Shown here: piece after piece, positions 58,745 through 60,191 of the stretch
How positions within the stretch are numbered: position 1 is the first letter of the stretch
How the letters are laid out: each line of letters begins with the position of its first letter
DNA from: Bacteroidales bacterium
GTDB taxonomy: Bacteria; Bacteroidota; Bacteroidia; Bacteroidales; UBA6680
Reading direction: 5' to 3'
Assembly: GCA_025210735.1 (NCBI GenBank)
Contig: JAOARD010000034.1
Coordinates: forward strand, 1-64,000
DNA: 64,000 nucleotides
Made by a program: the position numbers and the translations under genes
The notes under the pieces: model-generated
Told to the model about the DNA's origin: nothing
Database searches by the model: none
Seen by the model: the letters and a program-made list of their open reading frames with translations, nothing else

Positions 58745-58772
58745 AAAAAAATCGGGCGGCAAAAGCCACCCG
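58745..58772 (-). terminator. Intrinsic terminator after the AP2-domain gene
   Basis: On the minus strand CGGGTGGC and GCCGCCCG form an 8-bp stem (one G-T pair) with a TTTT loop, followed by ATTTTTTT. It lies just after the stop of the AP2-domain gene. Confidence 0.9.
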
Positions 58773-58778
58773 AAAATA

Positions 58779-59693
58779 TTAGTTGTAGTTAATCTCTTTC
58801 TTGAAGGTAACAAAATCTTCTGAAGAAAGTCCCTCCTCGGCTCTTTTAAGCCAACGTTCTCTGGTTTTCTGTAATTGCGCTTTATTAAAATAACGTATAT
58901 AATCAGGTAACTTTCTGTTGTACTGCGAACGTACTTTAAGAACTTCCTGATATTGGCGCTTTGTGAAATACATAGTAAAAACATCATTATCTGACAAATA
59001 GTCTACTCTATAGACTTTCTGACGTCCTCTGTGTGTTTCTAAGCGTCCTACACATAATTTAAAACCACTTACATACTTACCCTCAGCCTTTTGGTGTGGC
59101 ATTTTACGTATTTTCCTGCCCTCATCAAGAGTAAATTTTCTAACACCCTTCTCTAAATAGTGAGGAATGTTGTGTGCATAGGTAGATTTTGCTTTATTAA
59201 CTCTATTTGTAGCAAACTCTTCTCCAAATAGTTCAGCAGCTTTTTTATTGTATGCCATTGCAGCATCTTCTGCTGTTTCAAAATCGGTACCTAAAATGTG
59301 GACCTTGTTGTCATAATAAATCTGTGCTAAGAATTTACTTCCTGACACAGCTACACCTTTATAACCTGTTTTGTTGTAATAACTCTGAAGTCTTGTCTTC
59401 TCTGAGTTATTAATTCTTCTAAGGTTAGAAAGTCTACAGTCAAGTTTATTGCCATTCATGAAATAAACTAGTTTACGCTCAGGATCTTCCGGAATAAAAT
59501 TATCTGCAATCAGTTTGTGCAGATATACGGTTGTCAGAACACCTTTATTCCATTTCTGATAAAATGCATATCCCTGCTCATGTGCGCGTAGGTTCGATAC
59601 AATGTGTGGATAGTTTTTCTCCAAAAACTCGTACACGTTGGTGTCTACTAGAGCCAACGTGTTGTTGTTCTTTAGTGGAATTTGTACTTGCAT
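58779..59693 (-). CDS. AP2-domain protein with degenerate HNH motif
   Basis: 304 residues. Residues about 55-95 align with the HNH region of phage-type AP2/HNH endonucleases (VYLHKLIADNF then VYFMNGNKLDCRLSNLRRIN), but Phe78 replaces the central catalytic His and Asn80 the usual Asp-type residue. Residues about 109-163 are an AP2/ERF DNA-binding domain (GYKGVAVSGSKFLAQIYYD, LGTDFETAEDAAMAY, AAELFGEEFATN). The last 140 residues are basic and unassigned. The Shine-Dalgarno AGGAGGA at proper spacing is unique in this window. A domesticated homing-endonuclease acting as DNA-binding regulator is likely; nuclease activity is unlikely. Confidence 0.88.
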   Translation of the reverse strand: MQVQIPLKNNNTLALVDTNVYEFLEKNYPHIVSNLRAHEQGYAFYQKWNKGVLTTVYLHKLIADNFIPEDPERKLVYFMNGNKLDCRLSNLRRINNSEKTRLQSYYNKTGYKGVAVSGSKFLAQIYYDNKVHILGTDFETAEDAAMAYNKKAAELFGEEFATNRVNKAKSTYAHNIPHYLEKGVRKFTLDEGRKIRKMPHQKAEGKYVSGFKLCVGRLETHRGRQKVYRVDYLSDNDVFTMYFTKRQYQEVLKVRSQYNRKLPDYIRYFNKAQLQKTRERWLKRAEEGLSSEDFVTFKKEINYN

Positions 59694-59699
59694 GTTGGG

Positions 59700-59706
59700 T
59701 CCTCCT
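59700..59706 (-). promoter_or_regulatory. Strong Shine-Dalgarno sequence of the AP2-domain gene
   Basis: AGGAGGA on the minus strand, six bases before the ATG. Other genes in this window start without any Shine-Dalgarno sequence, so this is exceptional and suggests very efficient translation or recent acquisition. Confidence 0.85.
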
Positions 59707-59738
59707 GTTATTCCCGTTGGAATAACTAATAATTAGTT
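59707..59738 (-). promoter_or_regulatory. Two adjacent palindromes in the AP2 gene leader
   Basis: GTTATTCC-CGTT-GGAATAAC (59707-59726) is a perfect 8-bp inverted repeat directly next to the Shine-Dalgarno sequence, and AACTAAT-A-ATTAGTT (59724-59738) is a perfect 7-bp one overlapping it by three bases. The first can form an mRNA hairpin; both could be operators for autoregulation. Confidence 0.65.
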
Positions 59739-59750
59739 GTTTTTGTTATT

Positions 59751-59756
59751 ATTATA
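59751..59756 (-). promoter_or_regulatory. TATAAT box upstream of the AP2-domain gene
   Basis: TATAAT on the minus strand, 58 bp before the start. It is the classical -10 box of the E. coli type and not the Bacteroidota TAnnTTTG type. No TTGACA was found upstream, so it may be chance in AT-rich DNA. Confidence 0.25.
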
Positions 59757-60191
59757 CAGTCATATCGATGTAAATATATAAAATGATTTTTACTAATTGA
59801 AAATTTTTTACACTTTGTTGTAACATTTTTATTTCCACTGTACTTGCGCTGTTATCTAACCTCTTTTTCAGAAAATATATTCCCTGAAATATAATTAAAT
59901 CAATGTTTAATAAATAGCACTTTATAAAACAACCCATAATAACCACACAACAAACTCGTAACCAACACAATAAATCCGTAAACCGTAACAAGATTCAGAT
60001 ATTACAACATACCAGATGGGACTACAGATTTAAAATAACACATAAATACCTGTATAAGATATTGTTCAGGATTACTGAGATAACAGATAAAAACACCTCA
60101 AAAATTATTGATTTACAGGAGTAAATTCAGAATAATAGCAATATGAATATTTTATGAAAACACAAATTACGTGTATAAACGTCATATATTA
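59757..60191. other. AT-rich intergenic region, no gene seen
   Basis: Between the AP2 gene leader and the tlpA-like terminator, both on the minus strand. An open frame at 59752-59991 exists but gives a low-complexity, Cys/Leu/Ile-rich translation and overlaps the AP2 promoter. Nothing else was supported. Confidence 0.45.

Follow-up and report, generated by a model that had tools for sequence, protein, structure and literature searches.

A nuclease-dead HNH-AP2 protein family in Bacteroidia, probably domesticated as an abundant DNA-binding protein

The presence of an HNH-AP2 protein, built like a homing endonuclease but with a replaced catalytic histidine, in the chromosome of a Bacteroidales bacterium raises the question of what such a protein does for the cell. 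An earlier note on the window (the whole stretch of 64,000 nucleotides of contig JAOARD010000034.1 that was analyzed) had proposed a domesticated selfish gene, now serving as a highly expressed and possibly autoregulated DNA-binding protein. Considering domain structure, distribution, selection and control signals together, we give a probability of roughly 0.6 to the reading that the product is an abundant, nuclease-dead DNA-binding protein of the nucleoid-associated or global type, from an HNH-AP2 family that was domesticated in Bacteroidia. The features of the locus are listed in Table 1.

Table 1. Coordinates of the HNH-AP2 gene, its protein domains and its putative control signals in the window.
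Feature	Position	Strand	Basis or remark
Predicted nuclease-dead HNH-AP2 protein gene, 304 aa	58779..59693	-	ORF; stop codon included
Degenerate HNH domain, residues 55-105	59379..59531	-	Pfam HNH_3; model match to I-HmuI (1u3e); alignments
Tyr77	59463-59465	-	stands at the I-HmuI D74 position
Phe78	59460-59462	-	stands at the I-HmuI H75 position
Lys99	59397-59399	-	stands at the I-HmuI N96 position
AP2 DNA-binding domain (predicted), residues 108-166	59196..59372	-	structure matches and profile matches
C-terminal extension, residues 165-304, net charge +16	58782..59201	-	restricted to this genus (three genomes) among genomes searched
Shine-Dalgarno AGGAGG	59701..59706	-	7 bases before ATG; ranks first among the 46 window ORFs
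Inverted repeat, 8-bp stem, 4-base loop, presumed leader	59707..59726	-	partly kept in third species (G001)
AT-rich inverted repeat, 7-bp arms	59724..59738	-	broken in G001
Presumed promoter and leader block	59694..59855	-	about 160/162 bases identical in sister species (G002)
Intrinsic terminator with T-run	58745..58773; also placed at 58752-58773	-	stem conserved in G002
TATAAT	59751-59756		E. coli-type motif, may not be a promoter here

The 304-aa protein matched the Pfam model HNH_3 at residues 56-99 (28.4 bits, above the gathering score of 24.8) and the HNH endonuclease group PHROG 99 in the PHROGs collection (E 1.6e-20). Its AlphaFold model was confident over residues 1-165, and domain-wise alignment superposed residues 18-103 on I-HmuI (1u3e) with a Z of 7.4, so that both the fold and the sequence profile of HNH homing endonucleases were recovered. 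Residues 108-166 matched the plant AP2/ERF factors TEM1 (Z 9.1), WRI1 (Z 8.0) and AtERF1 (Z 7.0), reproducing the three-stranded sheet plus helix of all three AP2 structures, and the family profile also reached plant AP2 structures (E 2e-8 to 2e-5). The AP2 fold is retained, in agreement with the earlier note, though the Pfam AP2 model PF00847 found no match in the protein or anywhere in the genome. Because a Foldseek search with the whole 304-aa model gave nothing at E 0.001 or below, the fold assignments rest on domain-wise alignment and sequence profiles. The protein shares its first fold with I-HmuI but carries AP2 as its second domain, and shares the AP2 fold with the plant factors but has it fused to a dead HNH domain.

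The catalytic residues of I-HmuI are D74, H75 and N96 (PMC12724721), and all three tested positions are replaced in the window protein, by Tyr77, Phe78 and Lys99. The loss of the central His described in the earlier note was therefore borne out and extends to the equivalents of D74 and N96, leaving no intact catalytic site at the positions tested. Viral HNH-AP2 relatives show the spacing DH...N(+12)...N(+21), with distances taken from the His, which is that of I-HmuI; the window protein retains the +12 Asn (Asn90), and the combination of Asp-His with a downstream Asn that marks HNH homing endonucleases is absent from it. Reading the members individually (21, plus four, three of f125 and one of f54, plus 18), the His was absent in 43 of 43, replaced mostly by Phe, Leu, Ile or Val and in a few by Ala, Cys or Asn, while Asp-His was present in 135 of the 153 viral relatives having those columns aligned, a comparison set that includes some duplicates and a few degenerate proteins. 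The free-standing HNH-AP2 endonucleases of phages (PHROG 99, 959, 4578) resemble the family in HNH-then-AP2 order and core sequence, but keep the Asp-His and downstream Asn that this chromosomal family has lost. As judged from these alignments, inactivation of the HNH domain is family-wide and old rather than the private decay of one gene, which makes the idea of a nuclease turned DNA-binding protein stronger than first stated. It is very improbable that the protein remains an active nuclease or nickase through other residues, perhaps in DNA repair or defence: His38, Arg36 and Lys47 are invariant in a 20-member alignment and could be candidates for such activity, but the three I-HmuI equivalents are gone, the His mostly to a hydrophobic residue, and in the first HNH strand Gln or Asn can likewise stand where the His is expected.

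A core of about 178 aa with the same catalytic loss was found in the chromosomes of 22 of the 393 genomes sampled in the order (178-aa core profile, E below 1e-50), and family members occurred in 36 of 395 genomes sampled in the class (E below 1e-20), where families f176, f182 and f216 supply many species each. With a tenth or less of the sampled genomes carrying it, the presence of the protein is patchy and it is therefore not essential to the class. In a FastTree phylogeny, 25 members formed a single clade (support 0.99), and members from the same host family grouped together in nearly all cases. Gene order with housekeeping genes was conserved and reading frames were intact in the members read; the neighbors common within families include CorA, a PPIase-TPR protein, an OmpA protein and a TonB receptor. 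Phage-type neighbors were recognized neither in the window nor at the other loci checked, which led us to reject a prophage context and argues against a gene confined to prophages. In addition, the family had no plasmid match and no member among the viral loci examined; a viral scan with the full-length protein as query also gave no match, the viral relatives being reached by profile instead. The members are chromosomal and syntenic within families, and so lack the mobility of HNH homing endonucleases. Neither an NCBIfam name for the family nor, in a literature search, a paper describing a nuclease-dead chromosomal HNH-AP2 family was found. Altogether, these proteins appear to form an old, unannotated, chromosomal family across Bacteroidia, descended from virus-type DNA-cutting enzymes.

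The nearest outsiders on the tree were a chromosomal protein (L037) and the viral-contig proteins L089 and L123 (support 0.85). The latter two are AP2-domain proteins encoded near serine recombinase genes (L123, 4847-5563; L089, 4521-5393), in which Phe likewise replaces the HNH His; nuclease-dead forms thus appear to occur on mobile elements too. Since the nearest outsiders include viral-contig proteins with Phe, loss of the His may predate domestication, and could conceivably have started in a mobile ancestor. Separately, a second chromosomal HNH-like family was observed (L167, from 5114 onwards on contig C74 of G000; L171; L039; L074-L076), with an HNH part followed by a helix-turn-helix-like end and with VDHI changed to VIHL, so that the His is still there but the Asp is not; this may represent another domesticated HNH protein.

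Comparison with the sister species revealed 4 nonsynonymous and 54 synonymous changes in the gene (dN/dS 0.015), with a dS of 0.37 against 1.2 and 1.7 for the flanking genes; on the same scale, HU showed 0.37, ribosomal genes 0-0.27, EF-G 0.14 and ordinary genes 0.6-2.0. In another family, the protein was 96% identical between two species, and its seven syntenic neighbors 40-72%. The gene is under strong purifying selection and changes at a pace nearly as slow as that of core genes. If the gene were instead the leftover of a prophage or of a homing endonuclease gene in decay, this would agree with the origin from an HNH-AP2 nuclease gene and with the prophage-like loci among the closest non-family relatives found, but this explanation, which we consider extremely improbable, is already contradicted by the dN/dS, the intact frames and the conserved order with housekeeping genes. 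The computed evidence supports the earlier suggestion of a domesticated selfish gene to the extent that a gene of nuclease type, its catalytic site gone, is now maintained like other conserved genes of the cell. Moreover, the codon usage of the gene is the most ribosomal-type of the 46 window ORFs, yet lies under that of every ribosomal gene tested. Recent transfer of the block from one species to another could partly account for the low dS, although the codon score points to expression as its main cause, and together codon bias and low dS suggest the high expression that had been proposed.

The Shine-Dalgarno sequence has a predicted pairing energy of -10.9 kcal/mol, compared with -6.8 for the next best of the 46 window ORFs and a median of -0.9, so it is indeed the strongest of the window. 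Ribosomes of Bacteroidia sequester the anti-Shine-Dalgarno, and such sequences mark regulated genes in this class (PMC9976891), for which reason it is better read as a sign of regulation than of strength. Its use as a plain strength sign was rejected, given that the lineage normally ignores these sequences and that they are strong in rplE and missing in rpsU. In the ribosomal region, rplE (uL5; L163, 13296-13853) has the sole strong one (-13.5 kcal/mol) and rpsU has none, in a lineage where they are as a rule missing. AGGAGG is kept in the sister species; the third species has lost both it (-3.8 kcal/mol) and the AT-rich palindrome, and retains part of the hairpin. The upstream block that is nearly identical in the sister species has a sharp far border, against a dS of 1.2-1.7 in the flanking genes. 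The terminator is real, its stem being preserved in the sister species through a paired change from GGC/GCC to GAC/GTC, and the TATAAT box is present. Perfect inverted repeats with stems of 7 or more numbered 48 in the window against 42.4 expected, and an abutting pair occurred once against 0.2 expected, the expectation coming from only 10 first-order Markov sequences; the fold of the leader had a z of -1.4. The palindromes are thus present and abutting, as noted before, but lie within chance, and conservation does not reach past the closest species; for these reasons they were rejected as operators, and the description of the signals as phage-like or autoregulatory was not supported.

These signals also bear on whether the protein might instead regulate the transcription of a few targets in a sequence-specific way, its AP2 sheet reading a motif and the upstream palindromes perhaps forming its operator. 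Plant AP2 domains bind specific DNA motifs, and the roughly 160 upstream bases nearly frozen between two species would suit a regulator of this kind. There is also the precedent of WhiA of Gram-positive bacteria, a homing-endonuclease relative acting as a transcription factor (PMC3781837), which resembles the role in cellular DNA binding proposed here but combines a LAGLIDADG-family domain with an HTH, folds unrelated to HNH-AP2. We regard this explanation as unlikely, though as the most serious competitor: besides the chance-level palindromes and the broken AT-rich repeat in the third species, the apparent high expression, the extreme constraint and the histone H1-like tails of relatives better fit an abundant protein.

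Most family members end shortly past the AP2 domain. The 140-aa extension (+16) was present in all three genomes of the genus and in no other genome searched. As described earlier, these basic residues are without assignment, no Pfam family matching at cut-off; their predicted fold, a beta-sheet/helix followed by three helices, was of low confidence (pLDDT 59 when modeled alone), and a known domain was rejected on both grounds. In two species of another genus, the tails have at least 76 aa (the contig ends there) and 142 aa, with KKVVAKKAVAKK repeats, and the tails of L063 and L062 match Pfam HC2 (histone H1-like) with E 4.5e-19 and 2e-12, respectively. These two loci (L063, 5642-6592; L062, 6080-6832) encode an HNH-AP2 core fused to the H1-like tails. 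The Lys-rich HC2 repeat, of Lys/Ala/Val composition, occurs in both but not in the window tail, and a third lineage (L067) has a Lys/Arg-rich tail of 72 aa. Net charge of the core was +3 in the window protein and +7 to +17 in members outside its genus. The nucleoid reading follows mainly from this recurrent gain of basic tails; as most members are without a long tail, the argument covers few lineages. Furthermore, a short paralogue adjoins the HU gene in genomes G000 and G002, and is divergent from HU in the genome of the window gene, a linkage seen in this genus alone. The dS of the gene is similar to that of the nucleoid protein HU, but the HNH-AP2 core fold differs.

Taken together, these observations favor an abundant DNA-binding protein, for which we propose the following course. 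An HNH-AP2 nuclease gene would have been domesticated long ago in Bacteroidia, losing its nuclease and keeping its fold, and the protein, probably abundant, would bind DNA without cutting it, by way of its AP2 sheet and perhaps also of the former HNH surface. Basic tails that differ between lineages (140 aa in this genus, H1-like Lys repeats elsewhere) would add non-specific DNA contacts, giving core and tails a nucleoid-associated or global DNA-binding role, and the Shine-Dalgarno probably makes translation respond to the state of the ribosomes. More tentatively, and at somewhat less than even odds, the whole family may be nucleoid-associated, with H1-like tails in some lineages and AP2 as a bacterial chromatin domain.

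It has been proposed that the AP2/ERF domains of plants descend from HNH-AP2 homing endonucleases. In the present family, bacteria would provide a second instance of the step from HNH-AP2 nuclease to DNA-binding protein, with nuclease-dead members in many host families and the nuclease form still available for comparison in viruses. Overall, it would add to Bacteroidia a predicted DNA-binding protein that is still without a name in NCBIfam.
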